This document shows, one piece after another, positions 43,014 to 52,020 of a DNA stretch of 57,048 nt (position 1 is its first letter; each line of letters opens with the position of its first letter). The notes below the pieces were generated by a model that was given only the letters and a program-made list of their open reading frames with translations, was not told where the DNA came from and did not search any database. The stretch lies in the NCBI GenBank assembly GCA_018333955.1, contig JAGXSD010000005.1:1-57048 (forward strand), read 5' to 3'. This DNA is from Erysipelotrichia bacterium. Its GTDB lineage: Bacteria > Bacillota_I > Bacilli_A > Erysipelotrichales > Erysipelotrichaceae. Both the position numbers and the translations under genes were made by a program.

Positions 43014-43046
43014 AAAAGATTGGAATGATTCCAATCTTTTTTATCG
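43014..43046 (+). terminator. rnjA terminator
   Basis: A 12-bp stem AAAAGATTGGAA / TTCCAATCTTTT with a 3-base loop (43014-43040), followed by further T's. Shared with the convergent LiaF-like gene. Confidence 0.88.
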
Positions 43047-43673
43047 ATGAATTTCAATAGCTCCAAACATCACGGTATACTTAATCTTTAACACTTTGTC
43101 TCCTTGATTGTTGGTTTTATTTTCAAAACCACCTAATATTGGAGTTCCATCCGCAATGACTCTAACATCATCACCGACTCTAATCTCAGTTGAACCAAAC
43201 ATTGTGACAATATCAAGTTCAACAACATGATCTGGAAACTTTGCATTGCGATAATCAAGTTCATTGGAGCCAAACATAGTGGTAATAGTGGTTGACTTAG
43301 CTTCACTGAAAGCTTGTTCACGACCACCAAATGCTACATCGACACCTACATTATTTGAGACACGGATTATGGGTGAGCGTGAGAATAAGATTCTCACGCC
43401 AATTAAGATTAAGATTGAAGGCCAAAAGAACTGCCATAATGAATCAAATTGAATAACATCTAATTCTCGCAATATCCAAAGGACTGCTCCTAAAAAGATC
43501 AATGATGGAATGAGTTGAATCCGTTTTGATGTTATCATAGCGCTAAGCATCACTAATGCTAAAACAACGGGAAGAAATAATGGTTCTAATCTAGAATGGA
43601 GTTGTGGGTCCACCATGCTCAAAATGATAAGTGCACCTAATGTAATGAAAATGATTCCTAATAATTTTCTCAT
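43041..43673 (-). CDS. LiaF-like membrane protein
   Basis: 210 residues: about four hydrophobic segments in the first 100 residues (LiaF transmembrane domain) and a C-terminal beta-helical LiaF-like domain with the repeated VAFGGRE, TMFGSNELDYRNA and TMFGSTEIRV units. LiaF proteins damp the LiaRS cell-envelope stress system. No LiaR/LiaS genes are adjacent, so it may act with a distant system or be only a family relative. AGTAGGAGG ribosome site. Confidence 0.85.
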   Translation of the reverse strand: MRKLLGIIFITLGALIILSMVDPQLHSRLEPLFLPVVLALVMLSAMITSKRIQLIPSLIFLGAVLWILRELDVIQFDSLWQFFWPSILILIGVRILFSRSPIIRVSNNVGVDVAFGGREQAFSEAKSTTITTMFGSNELDYRNAKFPDHVVELDIVTMFGSTEIRVGDDVRVIADGTPILGGFENKTNNQGDKVLKIKYTVMFGAIEIHR

Positions 43674-43713
43674 AAGAACCTCCTACTTTGATATCTTATC
43701 AAAGGTAGTGTCA

Positions 43714-43722
43714 TGATACAAT
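43714..43722 (+). promoter_or_regulatory. Extended -10 of the metallophosphoesterase gene, leaderless arrangement
   Basis: TGATACAAT at 43714-43722, then AGAGGC and the ATG at 43729. AGAGG lies one base from the ATG, too near for normal use. Confidence 0.55.
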
Positions 43723-43728
43723 AGAGGC

Positions 43729-44577
43729 ATGAAACTACATAAATTAAAAATTAAAAAAAGATGGATAGTCTTTATAGCCATAGTTGTTGCTCTCTTTACA
43801 GAGATGTTTTATTTTTCACTGCGTCGTTTTGATGTTCACATTGAAGAAGTAACTTGGCTTAAAGTTCATGATGATCTTAAAGATTTAAGAATTGTATTCA
43901 TTTCTGATTTACATTATGGATTTGCGATGAATGAAGCGATGCTTGATGATATCGTAAGTTGGGTAAATCAATTGGATGCTGATATTATTCTATTTGGAGG
44001 AGATCTATTTGATCATCCAGCAACACTACTCCCAACTCAAACTATGCAAAGTACACTATCATCTAAGCTCGGTGAAATGCAGGCTAATATTACTAAGATT
44101 GCAGTATTAGGCAATCATGATCATGAATCAGCACTTACTTCTGCCATGACCATTCAGGTTTTACAAAATGGTGGTTTTGATGTCCTCATGAATCAAATGC
44201 AACGTATTGAAATGGGTCAATCCGCGATTCAAATTGTAGGCATTGATTCAAGTATTCTTGGAAGCCCAAACATTGAACGATCTCTCGCATTAGTGAATGT
44301 GGATGAATTAGTATTGGTATTAACCCATACTCCTGACTTAATTACACGACTACCAAGCTTTAAAGTTGATTGGCAGCTTTCTGGTCATAGTCATGGTGGT
44401 CAAATCGCATTACCTTGGCTTGGACCTATCATTACACCTCCCGATGCTCGTCTGTATACACATGGAACATATGAGGTGAATGGCATCCGACTGGATGTTA
44501 CCAATGGCTTAGGTACTACCGGAGTTAAAGCTCGATTATTTGCAAATCCATCAATTCATCTATTTATTCTAAAATAA
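43729..44577 (+). CDS. Membrane-anchored calcineurin-like metallophosphoesterase
   Basis: 282 residues. A basic N-terminus and one membrane helix (about 12-30) are followed by a metallophosphoesterase domain with all five metal motifs: FISDLHYG, FGGDLFD, LGNHDHE, VLTHTPD and SGHSHGGQ. It resembles the YkuE/YaeI-type enzymes, which act on UDP-diacylglucosamine-like or other phosphodiester lipids. Substrate not proven. No terminator is evident before the next operon. Confidence 0.88.
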   Translation: MKLHKLKIKKRWIVFIAIVVALFTEMFYFSLRRFDVHIEEVTWLKVHDDLKDLRIVFISDLHYGFAMNEAMLDDIVSWVNQLDADIILFGGDLFDHPATLLPTQTMQSTLSSKLGEMQANITKIAVLGNHDHESALTSAMTIQVLQNGGFDVLMNQMQRIEMGQSAIQIVGIDSSILGSPNIERSLALVNVDELVLVLTHTPDLITRLPSFKVDWQLSGHSHGGQIALPWLGPIITPPDARLYTHGTYEVNGIRLDVTNGLGTTGVKARLFANPSIHLFILK

Positions 44578-44702
44578 ACCATGAATTAACCCAAAAAGAT
44601 GACATAGTGAGAAAACTTTGTATCTTAACTCAAATAATGGGTAAATAATGTTAATTTTGTCACAAAAATGATGTTTTTTAATGCTTTATGTTGTTTTATC
44701 GG

Positions 44703-44731
44703 TTGTATGAGTGAAAATATTGGTTTATAAT
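44703..44731 (+). promoter_or_regulatory. Promoter of the ICMT-like/GH3/HD-GYP operon
   Basis: TTGTAT (44703-44708), 17-base spacer, TATAAT (44726-44731), followed by an AAAGGGAAAG ribosome site before the ATG at 44761. Confidence 0.75.
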
Positions 44732-44760
44732 TTATTGTACGTGATACAAAGGGAAAGAAT

Positions 44761-45324
44761 ATGACGTACTTAATAACCGGATGCCTTGCCTTTGCTTTTT
44801 TGGTAGTCTTTGACTTCAACAAAATCAAGTTAAGAATTAGTTTTCTTAACACTTTATTTGCGCTTGGATCAGGTCTTCTTTTGTATTCGTCCATCATGCT
44901 ACTTATCGACACCCCGAGGGATTTTAATGTTCCTTTATTGGGGGTCGTTTTTTTCTCCCTGTTAAGCTTGGTCAGCGGTTTGTTTATGTTCTATGCTCTT
45001 TTTGGAGCATTACCCTTTAAGCAAACATATGTTGAAGTTACTCAAAATAAAGTTATTGATTCTGGACTATATGCTTTATGTCGTCATCCAGGGGTGTGGG
45101 GATTTTTCTTTATGTACTTCTTTGCTTTTTTAGCATCAGGACGATGGATCGTCCTTACAGCGTGTATTGTGTGGACAGGATTTGATATTCTTCATGTTTG
45201 GCTTCAAGATGTATTTTTCTTTCCGAAAATGCTTGAAGGATATGAGCAATATCAACAATCAACCCCTTTCTTAATCTTTAATCCACAAAGTTTACAACGT
45301 TGTGCAAATACATTGGGAAAGTAG
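44761..45324 (+). CDS. Isoprenylcysteine/phospholipid methyltransferase-like membrane protein
   Basis: 187 residues, about five hydrophobic segments. The segment SGLYALCRHPGVWGFF (about 101-116) matches the SAM-binding signature of ICMT/PEMT/NnrU-type membrane methyltransferases (G-x-Y...RHP), and the late EGYEQYQQSTPFLI is like the conserved Glu-Tyr region before the C-terminus. Such enzymes methylate hydrophobic acids, phospholipid heads or prenyl-cysteine at the membrane. It starts an operon with a GH3 synthetase and an HD-GYP sensor. Substrate unknown; NnrU-like function without methylation is possible. Confidence 0.75.
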   Translation: MTYLITGCLAFAFLVVFDFNKIKLRISFLNTLFALGSGLLLYSSIMLLIDTPRDFNVPLLGVVFFSLLSLVSGLFMFYALFGALPFKQTYVEVTQNKVIDSGLYALCRHPGVWGFFFMYFFAFLASGRWIVLTACIVWTGFDILHVWLQDVFFFPKMLEGYEQYQQSTPFLIFNPQSLQRCANTLGK

Positions 45325-45333
45325 GATTTTAAT

Positions 45334-46959
45334 ATGACGATGGATCAAATGCTCAAAGAGAAAAAATACCAAGAGATATGGGAAAAATATTGTAGTTTCC
45401 TAGATTTTTCGATTGATGATTTTATGGAAATTCAAAATCGCTTACTCTTAGAGCAAATTTCGATTTACGCAAAATCAGAACTAGGTCAAAAGATTATGAA
45501 TGGACATGTTCCTACTTCTGTTGATGAATTTAGAAAACTTGTACCTTTAACGTCCTATGAAGATTATGCAGATATGTTACTTCCAAAGAATAAAGATGTT
45601 TTACCTGGTGAACCTATCGTTTGGATTCAAACAACTTGGGAAGGTGGTAAAGCTCCAATTAAAGTGGCTCCTTACACGAGAGCGATGATTGATATGAATC
45701 GTGAGTTTGCTTTAGCTTGTTGCATTCTTTCAACAAGCACTAAAAAAGGTGAATTCAAACTTCGCCCTAATATGAACTTTTTAAATGGGATGGCTCCACT
45801 ACCTTACTTAACAGGGCTTCTTCCCTATTCAATCCAAGGAGATTACACCGTCACTTTCTTACCTGATATTGAAGAAGGTAATAAAATGGGCTTTGGTGAA
45901 CGTAACAAAGCTGGTTTTAAACTTGGCATGCAAAAAGGAATTGATTTATTTTATGGCCTAAGCAGTATTATTGTTCGTATGGGAGAAAGTTTTGTTGAAG
46001 GTTCTTCAACAAAAAGTAAATTTGATATTTTCTCTTATGACATGAAAATGCTGTCTCGACTTGCGAAAGCAAAAATTAGAAGTAAGTTTAGTAAACAACC
46101 TATGTATCCTAAAGATGTTTTTGATCTTAAAGGTTTTGTATGTGCTGGAACAGATTCACTTCACTTTAAAAAGAAAATAGAGAAGTATTGGGGAGTTAAA
46201 CCACTCGAGATTTTTGGTGGCACTGAGGCTTGTGCGATAGGATCAGAATCTTGGACAAAGAATGGAATTATTCTATGGCCAAACATCTGTTTCTATGAGT
46301 TCATTCCAATGCATGAATTCTATAAGAACCTAGAAAATCCAAAGTATCAACCAAAAACCTACTTAATCAATGAACTTAAGGCCGATGAACATTACGAGAT
46401 TGTCATTACTACCCTCAAAGGAGGGGCATTTGCACGTTATCGTATTGGAGATGTCTTTAAGTGTTTATCACTAACACGTGAAGAAGATGGAATCATGCTT
46501 CCTCACTTCAGTTTTGTTGATCGAATTGCTCCGGTTATCGACCTTGCAGGATTCACTCGAATTACTCAAGGCACGATTAATGAAGTTATCTCACTCTCAA
46601 AGCTTGATATTCATGACTGGTTTGCCATTAAAAAATTCGATGTCGAGCAAAGACCTTATGTTTCAATGTACATTGAAATAAAACATCCAAAACAAGGTTA
46701 TGGTTTAGACAATGTTGAACTCATTAAAGATACCTTAGAAATTTACTTCAGATATCTTGATGAAGATTACAAAAATCTTCGTAAAATGCTTGGTATTGAT
46801 CCACTACAGGTTCATATTATTCCACTTGGTACTATTAAAGCCTATGAAGCTTCGGTGAATCACAAAGTATTCCGTGTTAATCCAAACTATTTCGATGTTA
46901 CCGAGATGCTAAAAATCGCATCTATGAAGCAAGGGGGTGAGACTTTTGCTACTTCATAA
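45334..46959 (+). CDS. GH3-family acyl-acid amido synthetase
   Basis: 541 residues, ANL-superfamily adenylating enzyme of the GH3 type. Visible blocks: VPLTSYEDYADML near 70, TTWEGGKAPIKVAPYT (variant of the phosphate-binding SSGT loop), IFGGTEACAIGSE (adenine/acyl site), and ARYRIGDVF (hinge-side motif). In plants GH3 proteins join jasmonate, auxin or benzoates to amino acids; bacterial members are mostly uncharacterised. The SSGTTGxPK-type loop is altered (TTWEGGKAPIK), so the ATP-binding loop is unusual. It sits nine bases after the methyltransferase gene and overlaps the next gene. Confidence 0.83.
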   Translation: MTMDQMLKEKKYQEIWEKYCSFLDFSIDDFMEIQNRLLLEQISIYAKSELGQKIMNGHVPTSVDEFRKLVPLTSYEDYADMLLPKNKDVLPGEPIVWIQTTWEGGKAPIKVAPYTRAMIDMNREFALACCILSTSTKKGEFKLRPNMNFLNGMAPLPYLTGLLPYSIQGDYTVTFLPDIEEGNKMGFGERNKAGFKLGMQKGIDLFYGLSSIIVRMGESFVEGSSTKSKFDIFSYDMKMLSRLAKAKIRSKFSKQPMYPKDVFDLKGFVCAGTDSLHFKKKIEKYWGVKPLEIFGGTEACAIGSESWTKNGIILWPNICFYEFIPMHEFYKNLENPKYQPKTYLINELKADEHYEIVITTLKGGAFARYRIGDVFKCLSLTREEDGIMLPHFSFVDRIAPVIDLAGFTRITQGTINEVISLSKLDIHDWFAIKKFDVEQRPYVSMYIEIKHPKQGYGLDNVELIKDTLEIYFRYLDEDYKNLRKMLGIDPLQVHIIPLGTIKAYEASVNHKVFRVNPNYFDVTEMLKIASMKQGGETFATS

Positions 46960-49510
46960 CATCATCTACTGGGGCGTGCCGTCTCTGGTCTTTGTGGCCA
47001 ATACAGTACTTTTCCTCATTCTAGCGCTCTCAAAGAAAGATAACCATGTTATCTCCTTTATGTTGTTTATGGGAGCGATGGCCAGTTGGCCCGCAGCATC
47101 ACTCTTTATGAAACTGCAACTTCCACCTGGTGTTTTGATTTGGAACCGTGTGATGGTTGCGGCCATGTTGATGATTCCTTACTTTGCTTACATTTTTGTA
47201 AGTATATTTACAGGCATTCGCAAACGTATGTCTGTAGTTGTCATCTCAGTTATTATACTTGGTCTTCAAGTTGCGAATGGATTGGGGCTTATTATCAGTA
47301 ATGCGTCCATGGTCTTAGTCGAAGTCAATGGTTTCTCACGCCTTGAACTTGATTATTCTGTTGGACCACTCGCAATACCTATGTTCTTAATCGTGTTTAT
47401 TATGCTTGCCATGACCATTAGAATGATGGGAAAGGCAATTAAAACAGGAAATAAATCCTCTGCGAGACTAAAACCAGTTTTATTTGGATTTATCGTATTG
47501 TTTATTGGGATGGTGTTTAACTTAGTACCAGTCATTGGTAAATACCCAGTAGACCTATCCTTTGGACTTATTACTTCACTTATCATGTTCTATGCTGTGT
47601 ATAAGACTCGCGTGATTGAACTTAAATTTGTAGTCACACGTGCTGTTGTGTTTACTGCATTGTTAACATTACTCGTCACAGTCACCGTTTATATTGTTAA
47701 GCAGATCACCGTTTTCTTTGGAAGTACTTTTGAAGGATTAGGAATCCAATCTCAAACCCTGATTTCTACATTGATTTCAATTGTGATGTTTCTTCCTTTG
47801 TTTAATATTGTTCAACAACTTGTTGAAAACTACTTCTATAAAGTTGAACAACATCATAACAACCTCATCAAGCAGTTTACCCTTAAAGTATCAAATAACT
47901 TAGACTTAAGTGTCATTAGTGAAGAACTTCTAAAAGTTATTAAAGAGATTACTGATCATGATCGAGCCTATCTCTTTCTTGAAAACTCTGATAGTCAGCA
48001 CTTTGAGTTTCATGGAGCAATTAAAAAACTTGATAAATTAACATTTACGATGTTGAAGACTCATCCATTTGTGCATTGGTTTAAACGTTATGATGATATC
48101 ATTTATGAACAAATCGTTGATGTCCATGCATTCTTTAAAACGATGTGGGATAGTGAACGCAATGATTTACTTCTTATGCGTTTTCAAGCAGCCATTCCAT
48201 TAAAGTACAATGGTTCTCTCATTGGTATGTTACTTGTAGGTTCAAAAGATTCCACATCTCGCTTATCTGAATCGGTATTAAACCAAGTTGCAACTCTGTG
48301 TGCTACGGCCGCTATCACAATTTCAAATGCGAAGTTATATGAAAAGACTAAACGAGAAGCTGTCATTGATAGCATGACAAATGTCTATAATCGTCGCTAC
48401 TTCATGGATTCACTTAATGAGTCCACAAAAAATCTTAGAACTCAAAGTGTTGCGGTAATCATGCTTAATATTGATATGTTCTCTCTGTACAATGACCTAT
48501 ATGGGCATGTCGCTGGGGATAAAGCATTAGTGAAACTTGCCAATACCATTAAAACTATTTGTGGCTCTCAAGGCCAAATTTGCCGATATGGCGAAGATAC
48601 ATTCGGAATCATTCTGCCGTATTCTGATTCAAAAATGGCCTATGAAATGGCTGAAAAGATTCGCTTACGCATGTCGACGTTAAGCATGGCAAGTGATCCA
48701 AATACACAACGCTATGTCACTATCTCATCGGGAATATGTGTTGCTCCTACTCTTGCGAATGATGGCCAAGATTTATTACATAAAGCAAACATTGCTTTAC
48801 GTAGCGCAAAAATGAACGGTAAGAACCAATCCGTCATTTATGATGAAATCATGGAAAAACAAAGTAATGGTAGTGAAGAAATGAATATGGCAACAATCTA
48901 TGCTCTTACTGCAGCCATTGATGCTAAAGACCATTTTACATTTGGTCACTCACAGCGTGTAGCTCGTTATGCTTGTGCGATTGCAGAAGAAGTTAATGCT
49001 AGTAAAGAAGAAATAGAACTCATCCGTCAAGCATCACTACTCCATGATATTGGAAAGATTGGTGTCCCTGAAAGCATTTTAACAAAACAAACAGCATTAA
49101 GTGATGAAGAATATGAAACGATGAAACGTCACGTTGATATGTCCATTACCATTATTAAATACTTACCAGCATTCTCTCATGTTATTCCTGCGGTGATGGG
49201 TCATCATGAGCGTTGGGATGGCTTTGGATATCCTCGCAAGATTGCAGGAGAAAACATACCATTCCCTGCTCGTTGTATTGCGCTTGCAGATGCATTTGAT
49301 GCAATCACTTCAGATCGTCATTACAAAGCATTCTTAAGTATAGAACATGCTTGTGAAGAAATTGAACGTAATGCTGGTACACAGTTTGATCCTATACTTG
49401 CCCATGCATTTGTAAGAGTGATCAAGAGTGGTCGACTCATTATCGAACCATCTCGTAACAATGCCTTTGGGAGTAAACAAGAAGTAGTGAATGCAATCAA
49501 AGCTTCTTAA
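46946..49510 (+). CDS. 7TM-GAF-GGDEF-HD-GYP sensor protein
   Basis: About 854 residues. About eight membrane helices (residues 8-295, like the HisKA_7TM sensor region) are followed by a GAF domain (about 320-465), a GGDEF-like domain (about 475-635) and an HD-GYP domain (about 650-840). The GGDEF signature is degenerate (RYGEDTF), so it probably does not make c-di-GMP. HD-GYP is intact (LLHDIGKIG, GHHERWDGFGYP), suggesting active cyclic-dinucleotide phosphodiesterase. The frame opens with a GTG at 46937; the TTG at 46946 has AAGGGGG at eight bases. Both overlap the GH3 3' end, so the genes are coupled. Confidence 0.88.
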   Translation: MLLHNIIYWGVPSLVFVANTVLFLILALSKKDNHVISFMLFMGAMASWPAASLFMKLQLPPGVLIWNRVMVAAMLMIPYFAYIFVSIFTGIRKRMSVVVISVIILGLQVANGLGLIISNASMVLVEVNGFSRLELDYSVGPLAIPMFLIVFIMLAMTIRMMGKAIKTGNKSSARLKPVLFGFIVLFIGMVFNLVPVIGKYPVDLSFGLITSLIMFYAVYKTRVIELKFVVTRAVVFTALLTLLVTVTVYIVKQITVFFGSTFEGLGIQSQTLISTLISIVMFLPLFNIVQQLVENYFYKVEQHHNNLIKQFTLKVSNNLDLSVISEELLKVIKEITDHDRAYLFLENSDSQHFEFHGAIKKLDKLTFTMLKTHPFVHWFKRYDDIIYEQIVDVHAFFKTMWDSERNDLLLMRFQAAIPLKYNGSLIGMLLVGSKDSTSRLSESVLNQVATLCATAAITISNAKLYEKTKREAVIDSMTNVYNRRYFMDSLNESTKNLRTQSVAVIMLNIDMFSLYNDLYGHVAGDKALVKLANTIKTICGSQGQICRYGEDTFGIILPYSDSKMAYEMAEKIRLRMSTLSMASDPNTQRYVTISSGICVAPTLANDGQDLLHKANIALRSAKMNGKNQSVIYDEIMEKQSNGSEEMNMATIYALTAAIDAKDHFTFGHSQRVARYACAIAEEVNASKEEIELIRQASLLHDIGKIGVPESILTKQTALSDEEYETMKRHVDMSITIIKYLPAFSHVIPAVMGHHERWDGFGYPRKIAGENIPFPARCIALADAFDAITSDRHYKAFLSIEHACEEIERNAGTQFDPILAHAFVRVIKSGRLIIEPSRNNAFGSKQEVVNAIKAS

Positions 49511-49528
49511 ATTAAATCATTAATAATC

Positions 49529-49576
49529 AACCTTCATGAAAACATTGTAGTATGTTGCACATGAAGGTTTTTTTAT
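49529..49576 (+). terminator. Terminator of the GH3 operon
   Basis: Long hairpin: outer stem AACCTTCATG / CATGAAGGTT, inner stem AACAT / ATGTT, then seven T's. Confidence 0.85.
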
Positions 49577-49579
49577 GCA

Positions 49580-49604
49580 AAAGAAAAGTTAGGTTGACCT
49601 AACT
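49580..49604 (-). terminator. leuS terminator
   Basis: Minus strand: AGTTAGG, short loop, CCTAACT followed by TTTCTTTT, 23 bases after the leuS stop. Confidence 0.75.
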
Positions 49605-49626
49605 CTTCATTTAACTTTATAGATGA

Positions 49627-52020
49627 CTAACGAACAACAAGATTAACGATTTTATTCTTAACAACAATCTCTTTCACAATACTCTTATCTTGAAGTGCTT
49701 CCAACACTGATGGAACTGATTTTGCTAGATTTAGAACCACAGCATCATCCTCATCTGTTTTCACAACAAACTTACCTTTTAGTTTGCCATTGATTTGAAC
49801 GACCATTTCAACCTCAGACAATACAAGTTGTTGTTCATCATAAGTTGGCCAAGATTCATACGTAATACCTTGTTTACCACTAACATGTTCCCAGAGTTCC
49901 TCTCCAAGATGAGGAGCAAAAGCTGAGAACATTTTAATAAACCCTAAAGCATACTCTTTATATACACTTGTGGCTTTATAGCACTCATTGATAAAAATCA
50001 TCATTTGCGATATTGCTGTATTTAAGTTTAGTGTTTCAATATCAGATGACACTTTCTTCACGGTTTGATGATAAACTCGATCTAATTCATGAGTATTAGT
50101 TTCACTGAGTCGTGATTCTTCTTTAAATAAACGATAGACCCGATCTAACCAACGACGTGAACCTTCCATATTTGCATCTGACCAAGGAAGTGCTGCTTCA
50201 AGAGGTCCCATAAACATTTCATAAACTCGTAGTGTATCCGCCCCGTGTGATCTAACGTAATCATCAGGATTTAAAACATTTCCACGCGATTTGGACATCT
50301 TCTCACCATTTTCTCCTAAGATCATCCCTTGATGGAATAAGCGGATAAAAGGCTCTTTGGTAGAAACCACCCCTAAATCATATAATACTTTATGCCAGAA
50401 ACGAGCATAGAGCAAATGCAGTACAGCATGCTCAGCACCACCCACATATAAGTCAACAGGTAACCAATGATCTAAGAGTTTCTTATTCCCAATCTCTTGA
50501 TTATTATGTGGATCAATATAGCGTAAATAATACCAACATGAACCAGCCCATTGTGGCATCGTATTTGTTTCGCGTTTTCCTTTAACCCCATCCATTTCAA
50601 CAAACAACCAATCCTGAGCATGTGACAATGGAGATTCCCCACTATCACTTGGTTTATATTGAGATACATCAGGAAGTTGAAGTGGTAAATCTTCCACAGG
50701 CACAGTTTTTGTGGTGCCATCTTCTAAGAAAATTACGGGGATTGGTTCACCCCAATAACGTTGACGTGAAAACAACCAATCACGGAGTTTATATGATGTT
50801 TTTGCTTCACCACACCCCTCTTTTTGAAGGAATGCAATCATTGCATCAATCCCATCTTGTTTATTCAAACCATTAAGAAAATCTGAATTGATGTGAAGCC
50901 CATCACCCGTAAAGGCATTTTGAGTGATATCTCCACCTTCTAAAACTTCTACAATATCAAGATTGTATTTTTTTGCGAACTCATAATCTCGCTCATCATG
51001 GGCAGGTACCGCCATAATAGCACCTGTACCATATGAAATAAGCACATAATCCGCAATCCATATAGGGACTTTCTGACCATTCACAGGGTTAATTGCATAT
51101 GCTCCTGTGAAAACTCCACTCTTATCTTTATTTAACTCTGTTCTATTAAGATCTGACTTCATCGATGCTTCTTGAACATAAGCTTCGACAGCTTCTTTTT
51201 GAGCCTCTGTGGTGATTTCCTTTACAAATGGATGTTCTGGTGCCAATACACAATACGTTGCGCCAAACAAGGTGTCTGGACGTGTTGTGAAGACTGTAAA
51301 TATTTTCTGATGACCATCCACTTTAAAATCAACATTCGCGCCTACAGACTTACCAATCCAGTTAATTTGCATTTCTTTGGTAGAGGTTGGCCAATCCACA
51401 AGTTCTAAATCCTCAAGCAAACGCTCAGCATAACGAGTAATGCGTAGTACCCATTGTCTCATTAAGACTCTATATACAGGGAAATCCCCACGCTCACTTC
51501 GACCATTAATGACTTCTTCATTCGCAAGGACTGTTCCTAGTTCTGGACACCAATTCACTGGAAGTTCAGCCACATAGGCTAAATCAAGTTCGACAAGCTT
51601 TGTAAAGATCCATTGTGTCCATTTGTAGTAATCAGGATCCGTGGTAGAAATTTCACGATCCCAATCATAGGATAATCCAAGTGATTTAATTTGACGCTTA
51701 AAGTTTTCAATGTTTTGCTTAGTGAAGGCCGCAGGATGATTTCCTGTCGCGATCGCAAATTGCTCTGCAGGTAGTCCAAAAGCATCCCATCCCATGGGAT
51801 GAAGCACATTAAATCCTTCCATACGTTTTTTGCGTGCTACGATATCAGTCGCAGTATACCCTTCAGGATGACCGACATGAAGTCCTGATCCTGATGGATA
51901 TGGAAACATATCTAATACATAATACTTTGGTTTTGAAAAGTCATGGGTGTTTGTTTTAAAAGATTGATTTTCATCCCAAAACTTTTGCCACTTCTTTTCA
52001 ACATGTTGATGATTGTACAT
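49627..52020 (-). CDS. leuS: Leucyl-tRNA synthetase
   Basis: 797 residues, class Ia. HIGH motif in [20 protein letters not shown] in [10 protein letters not shown], an editing (CP1) domain with [12 protein letters not shown], a zinc-like insertion region, and the C-terminal domain ending in [10 protein letters not shown]. The frame is open to 52077 through the T-box, but the ATG at 52020 has AAGGAG and gives [15 protein letters not shown], the family N-terminus. Transcription is controlled by the T-box leader. Confidence 0.98.

Follow-up and report, generated by a model that had tools for sequence, protein, structure and literature searches.

The stretch of DNA analysed here, hereafter called the window, comprises 57,048 nucleotides (positions 1 to 57,048 of contig JAGXSD010000005.1, assembly GCA_018333955.1) from an Erysipelotrichia bacterium of the order Erysipelotrichales. 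Reading of its open reading frames (ORFs) revealed three co-directional genes at 44761-49510 (+), with a metallophosphoesterase gene on one side and, on the other, leuS in convergent orientation. Gene 1 encodes a predicted integral-membrane methyltransferase, gene 2 a divergent member of the GH3 family of amido synthetases and gene 3 a predicted membrane sensor with a C-terminal phosphodiesterase domain for cyclic di-guanosine monophosphate (c-di-GMP). The original prediction, made from the letters of the window, had proposed that the first two enzymes make or modify a hydrophobic acyl amide or ester, and that the third protein senses it or a related membrane cue; conserved co-occurrence of these neighbours outside this genome was named as support for a system.

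In order to compare the locus across genomes, loci were retrieved with the GH3 protein as sole query. The genome collection yielded 333 stretches with GH3 relatives, 80 of which were kept. GH3 orthologs were present in 38 of the 316 genomes of the order and, among good genomes, in 15 of 80 genera; they were also found in other Bacilli families and in Clostridia, where the searches gave about 10 strong matches of 299, and 14 of 299 in one family. Altogether, 116 distinct loci were obtained, which are spread over Erysipelotrichia, Clostridia and other Bacilli. Among those with enough flanking DNA, gene 1 lies directly upstream of the GH3 gene in 110/110 cases and the gene 3-type sensor directly downstream in 113/113, with median junctions of -4 and -1 nt (typically overlapping) and with outer neighbours that vary between genera. 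The conservation of the neighbours thus extends far beyond the genome of origin, and a chance neighbourhood is excluded by the 116 loci. Gene 1, gene 2 and the sensor have correlated pairwise distances (Spearman 0.70-0.86). The three genes are one tight, co-inherited unit, and we regard the unit, its conservation and its co-inheritance as established.

Erysipelotrichales sequences stand at several places on the GH3 tree, some of them among Clostridia, which suggests that the unit has been transferred between lineages. The idea that it is cargo of a mobile element, plasmid or phage was rejected, as the GH3 protein had no match in viral contigs, plasmids or phages. Two loci labelled as Fermentimonas (Bacteroidota; L110) and Fusobacteria (L158) carry the unit, but their GH3 sequences fall within Firmicutes clades of the tree; they are probably mis-binned metagenome contigs or the result of recent transfer. 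GH3 proteins are not always paired with HD-GYP proteins: distant Clostridial GH3 proteins (24-31% identity, SSGTTG-type motif) are encoded in different neighbourhoods, which lack gene 1. In three loci (L202, L203 and L204), such a Clostridial GH3 gene (SSGTTG motif) is in an operon with a MarR-like regulator and a transporter resembling the major facilitator superfamily (MFS), a detoxification-like context. In two others (L207, 8123-13038, and L208), another GH3 gene has an acetyltransferase-like gene on one side and, on the other, genes that resemble those for B12-binding radical S-adenosylmethionine proteins.

The features of the unit in the window are collected in Table 1. As described originally, the genes are separated by 9 nt (genes 1 and 2) or overlap (genes 2 and 3). 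Gene 3 probably starts at TTG 46946 rather than at GTG 46937, because the ribosome-binding site 5' of this TTG is strong (AAGGGGGTGA, 46931-46940) and because close orthologs have a length of 853-854 amino acids (aa); its overlap with gene 2 is therefore more likely to be 14 than 23 nt. Of the transcription signals foreseen for the unit, the single terminator was confirmed as a stem followed by a T run. The single promoter is plausible, in that one good candidate was found by eye, but this candidate is not listed by the consensus scan because its -35 element matches at 3/6 positions. With regard to riboswitches or other known RNAs, there were zero Rfam matches in 43600-50000, even at E 1, and zero matches at the gathering score in nine related loci. 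A near-perfect palindrome at 49583-49608 probably terminates transcription of the convergent leuS gene and is distinct from the terminator of the unit. On the other side, a gene for a LiaF-like membrane protein (43041-43673, -) diverges from the metallophosphoesterase gene (43729-44577, +); both were rejected as parts of the unit since their adjacency is kept within the genus only.

Table 1 Features of the three-gene unit in the window; domain rows are predictions.
Feature	Position	Strand	Description and basis
Candidate promoter	44703..44731	+	TTGTAT-N17-TATAAT; by eye; weak
Gene 1	44761..45324	+	Predicted integral-membrane ICMT/PEMT-fold methyltransferase, 187 aa
Gene 2	45334..46959	+	Putative divergent GH3-family acyl amido synthetase, 541 aa
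Gene 3	46946..49510	+	Putative 7TM-GAF-GGDEF-HD-GYP receptor; TTG start preferred, longest ORF from GTG 46937
GPCR-like 7TM sensor of gene 3	46940..47605	+	Residues 2-223 counted from GTG 46937; predicted
Beta hairpin between TM4 and TM5 of the sensor	Residues 120-142		AF2 model
Two further TM helices of gene 3, leading into the cytoplasmic domains	47639..47899	+	AF2 model
GAF domain of gene 3	47903..48316	+	Pfam E 8e-4, just under cutoff
GGDEF domain of gene 3	48359..48829	+	Degenerate motif RYGEDTF; Pfam and motif
HD-GYP phosphodiesterase domain of gene 3	48911..49393	+	HDIGK and HHERWDGFGYP intact
Intrinsic terminator	49529..49576	+	10-bp stem 49529-49569, then T run; -16.8 kcal/mol, z -3.4
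GPCR, G-protein-coupled receptor; TM, transmembrane; AF2, AlphaFold2.

The protein encoded by gene 1 of the window is below the Pfam cutoffs (PEMT, E 0.0016; ICMT, E 0.03). At E<=0.01, its orthologs match PEMT in 26/40 cases (best 1.4e-8) and ICMT in 11/40. The best structural match of the AF2 model (mean predicted local distance difference test score, pLDDT, 94.6) is Ma-ICMT (4a2n; Z 9.7, 144 residues, root mean square deviation (rmsd) 3.6), followed by eukaryotic ICMT (5vg9, Z 9.6) and then by sterol reductases; the Foldseek E-values are by themselves weak (0.27). The RHP motif and the C-terminal YxxY...P segment are present, with R108, H109, G111, Y161, Y164 and P169 invariant in 40 orthologs. 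Based on the Pfam matches of the orthologs, the proximity of the model to solved ICMT structures and these invariant residues, the prediction of an ICMT-fold methyltransferase is well supported, in agreement with the 'ICMT-like' label given originally. Gene 1 was rejected as a generic, ubiquitous ICMT, as it scores at least 146 bits in unit-bearing genomes versus at most 52 elsewhere, bar two fragments.

The family assignment of gene 2 as GH3 amido synthetase was likewise upheld, since the central (GH3_M, 55.6 bits) and N-terminal (31.6 bits) GH3 domains both exceed the Pfam cutoff of 23.6, with GH3_C (19.5 bits) under its own cutoff. The nearest solved structures are those of JAR1 and other plant GH3 enzymes. 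Motifs II (FGGTE; YxSSE-like) and III (RYRIGD; YRxGD) are retained, the latter deviating in a few orthologs. Motif I reads TTWEGG instead of the classical SSGTSxG, and the form TTW[EKR][GA]G is conserved across the main clade, whereas distant non-cassette GH3 proteins have SSGTTG, TSGS or TSGT forms. A conserved replacement of this kind (TTW[EK]GG) could mean that gene 2 is no longer adenylating and acts as a binding protein or in some other reaction. We consider this highly improbable in view of the retained motifs II and III and of the deepest cassette members (L196, L197, L198 and L200), which still have TSG-K/R at motif I; because of these, the shift looks like a stepwise re-tuning under selection rather than decay.

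For gene 3, the AF2 model of the membrane part (pLDDT 90.8) has nine helices, seven GPCR-like and two more, and the positive-inside pattern of basic loops places the N-terminus outside. The original description of this protein as a 7TM-GAF-degenerate GGDEF-HD-GYP sensor was correct as to the domains, the degenerate GGDEF and the intact HD-GYP, but fell short of the nine predicted helices. The Pfam family HisKA_7TM (PF16927) matches the membrane region in 39/49 orthologs (best 6.5e-15; no match at 0.01 for the sequence of the window), with which the domain appears to belong. When the sensor model was compared to solved structures using Foldseek and VIA-align, all 50 rows listed were GPCRs or a designed protein resembling them (Z 14.5-16.6, about 195-221 aligned residues, rmsd 3.5-4.7), and in the model the hairpin is positioned as the second extracellular loop (ECL2) of GPCRs. 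Since helical bundles score generously, we claim a GPCR-like predicted fold and not homology, and coupling to G proteins would not be expected. Of the 11 nearly invariant residues of the seven-helix part, eight (W51, M58, P64, W69, Y140, G191, P204 and D206) lie in its predicted outer half, where binding of a ligand from the exterior or the outer leaflet would be expected.

On the cytoplasmic side, nearly all of 98 orthologs retain HD and HHExxDGxGYP, the characteristic residues of HD-GYP domains, with one exception in the HDIGK segment. Most of these orthologs have a degenerate GGDEF site: RYSGKEF is commonest and about a quarter keep GG[DE]EF. This difference between a near-invariant and a mostly degenerate site points to a phosphodiesterase as the conserved output of gene 3. 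Unit-bearing genomes encode 3-39 GGDEF proteins, so c-di-GMP would be available to degrade; of four included relatives without the unit, three hold no GGDEF protein and one (G003) holds 21. We regard the fold and domain assignments of the three proteins, as predictions of fold and family, and the HD-GYP motifs as established.

Clues to the substrate came from genes that were added to the unit in some lineages. Of the 125 loci with sufficient upstream sequence, 11 have a gene of the DegV family (PF02645, E down to 1e-72) as the immediate 5' neighbour of gene 1. Mapping its presence onto the GH3 tree requires six changes, of which at least five are forced by supported branches, and DegV was therefore probably recruited to the unit repeatedly; few gains plus several losses would be the alternative. 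The FakB proteins, which carry fatty acids in Gram-positive bacteria, are DegV proteins (PMC12288450, PMC9136124), and OlsH, a characterised bacterial GH3 enzyme, converts fatty acids and ornithine to N-acyl-ornithine (PMC12493201). Based on the DegV recruitment and the OlsH precedent, a fatty acyl substrate is our best guess for gene 2. The hydrophobic acyl amide or ester of the original prediction has thereby gained indirect support as the putative product. The loci of Syntrophomonadaceae and Pelotomaculum have an additional class I methyltransferase gene beside gene 1, which suggests a second methylation there.

The same observations bear on the main rival explanation, in which the GH3 enzyme and gene 1 would make a bulk methylated amino lipid of the membrane, and gene 3 would read the state of the membrane and set c-di-GMP levels without any diffusible signal. 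OlsH is encoded in an operon with an N-methyltransferase, and OlsH/OlsG/OlsI make ornithine lipids (PMC12493201); among the gene 1 orthologs, matches to PEMT outnumber those to ICMT; and the extra class I methyltransferase would suit such a pathway. Gene 2, however, reaches 21.6 bits on the OlsH lyso-ornithine lipid synthetase model NF052613 (NCBIfam), far under its 620-bit cutoff, the unit has no conserved acyltransferase partner, and a lipid pathway would be expected to occur sometimes without this receptor, which was never so in the loci examined. All in all, we consider a membrane lipid rather unlikely, though a serious competitor.

The distribution of the receptor is informative in this respect. 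No unit locus was seen to have the enzymes without the receptor. A gene 3-type sensor is present in 40/311 genomes of the order, three of which (G048, G072 and G076) have no GH3 match. G048 and G072 have a lone receptor that adjoins a gene reading like undecaprenyl-diphosphatase (UppP), and the unit of G076 (L229, G076:C82, 2407-5622) is decaying, with a gene 1 remnant containing six stops, a short GH3 piece and an intact 849-aa receptor. The two lone receptor genes, which have neither gene 1 nor GH3 beside them, are at 6290-8749 of L227 and 8235-10697 of L228, with the UppP-like gene adjacent in both genomes. By analogy, receptors that outlive their synthases would be the pattern of signal-receptor pairs, and the sensing of the product of genes 1 and 2 by gene 3 would fit both this pattern and the GPCR-like predicted membrane domain. 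The absolute linkage of the enzymes to the receptor would also be accounted for if genes 1 and 2 made a bound cofactor or maturation group of the receptor, comparable to the retinal of rhodopsin, and gene 3 sensed something else. As the intact receptors without enzymes in three genomes suit an external ligand better, we judge such a cofactor to be improbable.

Taken together, we propose, at roughly even confidence, that the three genes constitute a self-contained circuit for a lipid signal. In this circuit, gene 2 would use ATP to convert a hydrophobic acid, such as a fatty acid, to the acyl adenylate and join it to an amine or amino acid, giving an acyl amide. ICMT methylates the carboxyl group of isoprenylcysteine, and the membrane-buried gene 1 protein would methylate the product of gene 2, most simply at a carboxyl group, making it neutral and membrane-permeant. 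Gene 3 would bind this product, or report its absence, via the GPCR-like seven-helix domain on the outer face, and the signal would pass through the two further helices and the GAF/GGDEF region to the HD-GYP domain, which would degrade c-di-GMP and thus lower its level. We infer the fatty acid substrate from DegV and OlsH, and the order and site of methylation, the identity of the ligand and the direction of the response belong to the same conditional part of the proposal. Alternatively, gene 3 could sense an exogenous hydrophobic acid, which the GH3 enzyme and gene 1 would conjugate, methylate and thereby inactivate. Plant GH3 enzymes do inactivate hormones, and GH3 genes of Clostridia outside the unit are accompanied by a MarR-like regulator and an MFS-like transporter; yet neither a transporter nor a MarR-type regulator is conserved in the unit, and the HD-GYP output has no obvious way of regulating the enzymes, so that detoxification or uptake has little probability in our view.

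Several points weigh against the proposed signalling circuit. Operon partners can equally be a lipid pathway and its regulator instead of a signal and its receptor, and the enzyme chemistry, the product and the ligand are all inferred. The altered motif I of gene 2 (TTWEGG for SSGTSxG) leaves its use of ATP as a sequence-based prediction, DegV is present in just 9% of the loci, and the orphan receptors are few (three genomes). The GPCR-like predicted fold is uninformative on the ligand, and the Z scores of helical bundles are generous.

As a more tentative extension of the circuit, the unit may make a widespread lipid autoinducer of anaerobic Firmicutes, i.e. an acyl amide methyl ester produced by the GH3 and ICMT-like enzymes and perceived by a receptor of true GPCR-type fold that has a c-di-GMP phosphodiesterase as its direct output. 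Peptide pheromones are the signals for which Firmicutes are known, and to our knowledge no lipid autoinducer circuit is known in them. If the proposal is true, hundreds of gut and sediment anaerobes, including the culturable Clostridium symbiosum, Oliverpabstia and Murimonas, would control c-di-GMP through a common signal of simple chemistry. A predicted GPCR-like sensor encoded beside its probable ligand-making enzymes would, in addition, offer a route to a ligand for the HisKA_7TM family, and bacterial relatives of GPCRs would become a directly testable question. Since human GPCRs, too, have acyl amides among their ligands, the product could matter to the host.

In the literature (open-licence text in PubMed Central, PMC), we found no description of the combination of a GH3 enzyme, an ICMT-like enzyme and an HD-GYP receptor, and from its sequence the unit looks like an undescribed lipid signalling circuit. 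The OaaA/OaaACP/OaaC clusters of gut Clostridia make fatty acid amides, the type of product proposed here, in the same kind of bacteria, but they consist of adenylation, carrier and condensation proteins resembling non-ribosomal peptide synthetases (discussed in PMC13142362) and include no GH3, ICMT or receptor. In the OlsH/OlsG/OlsI system of Singulisphaera (PMC12493201), a GH3 enzyme, joining fatty acid and amino acid in the manner proposed for gene 2, is encoded with a methyltransferase, but OlsH has an SSGT-type motif I (TSGTTQGATK), its partner is an alpha/beta hydrolase, and there is no c-di-GMP receptor. The HisKA_7TM sensor kinases appear to share the membrane sensor family with gene 3 (matches in 39/49 orthologs), but have a histidine kinase output in place of the GAF-GGDEF-HD-GYP module, which is co-encoded with the GH3 and ICMT-like enzymes. 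In the Phc quorum sensing system of Ralstonia, the methyltransferase PhcB finishes 3-hydroxypalmitic acid methyl ester (3-OH-PAME) as a methyl ester. As proposed for the unit, a methyltransferase beside a sensor thus completes a hydrophobic acid signal, but Phc has no GH3, its sensor is a histidine kinase and the proteins are unrelated. RpfG is the HD-GYP phosphodiesterase of the RpfF/RpfC/RpfG system for the diffusible signal factor (DSF). In RpfR, a fatty-acid-type signal is sensed by a c-di-GMP phosphodiesterase of the EAL type (PMC8846402). Both RpfF/RpfC/RpfG and RpfF/RpfR, the latter for the Burkholderia DSF (BDSF), resemble the unit in that a fatty-acid-type signal made at the locus, as proposed here, is sensed through a c-di-GMP phosphodiesterase. 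They differ in their synthase, which is of the crotonase fold in RpfF and GH3 plus ICMT-like in the unit, in the soluble PAS sensor of RpfR and in their occurrence in Proteobacteria. By this comparison, RpfF/RpfR is a functional analogue of the proposed circuit, with every part of the present unit drawn from a different family.

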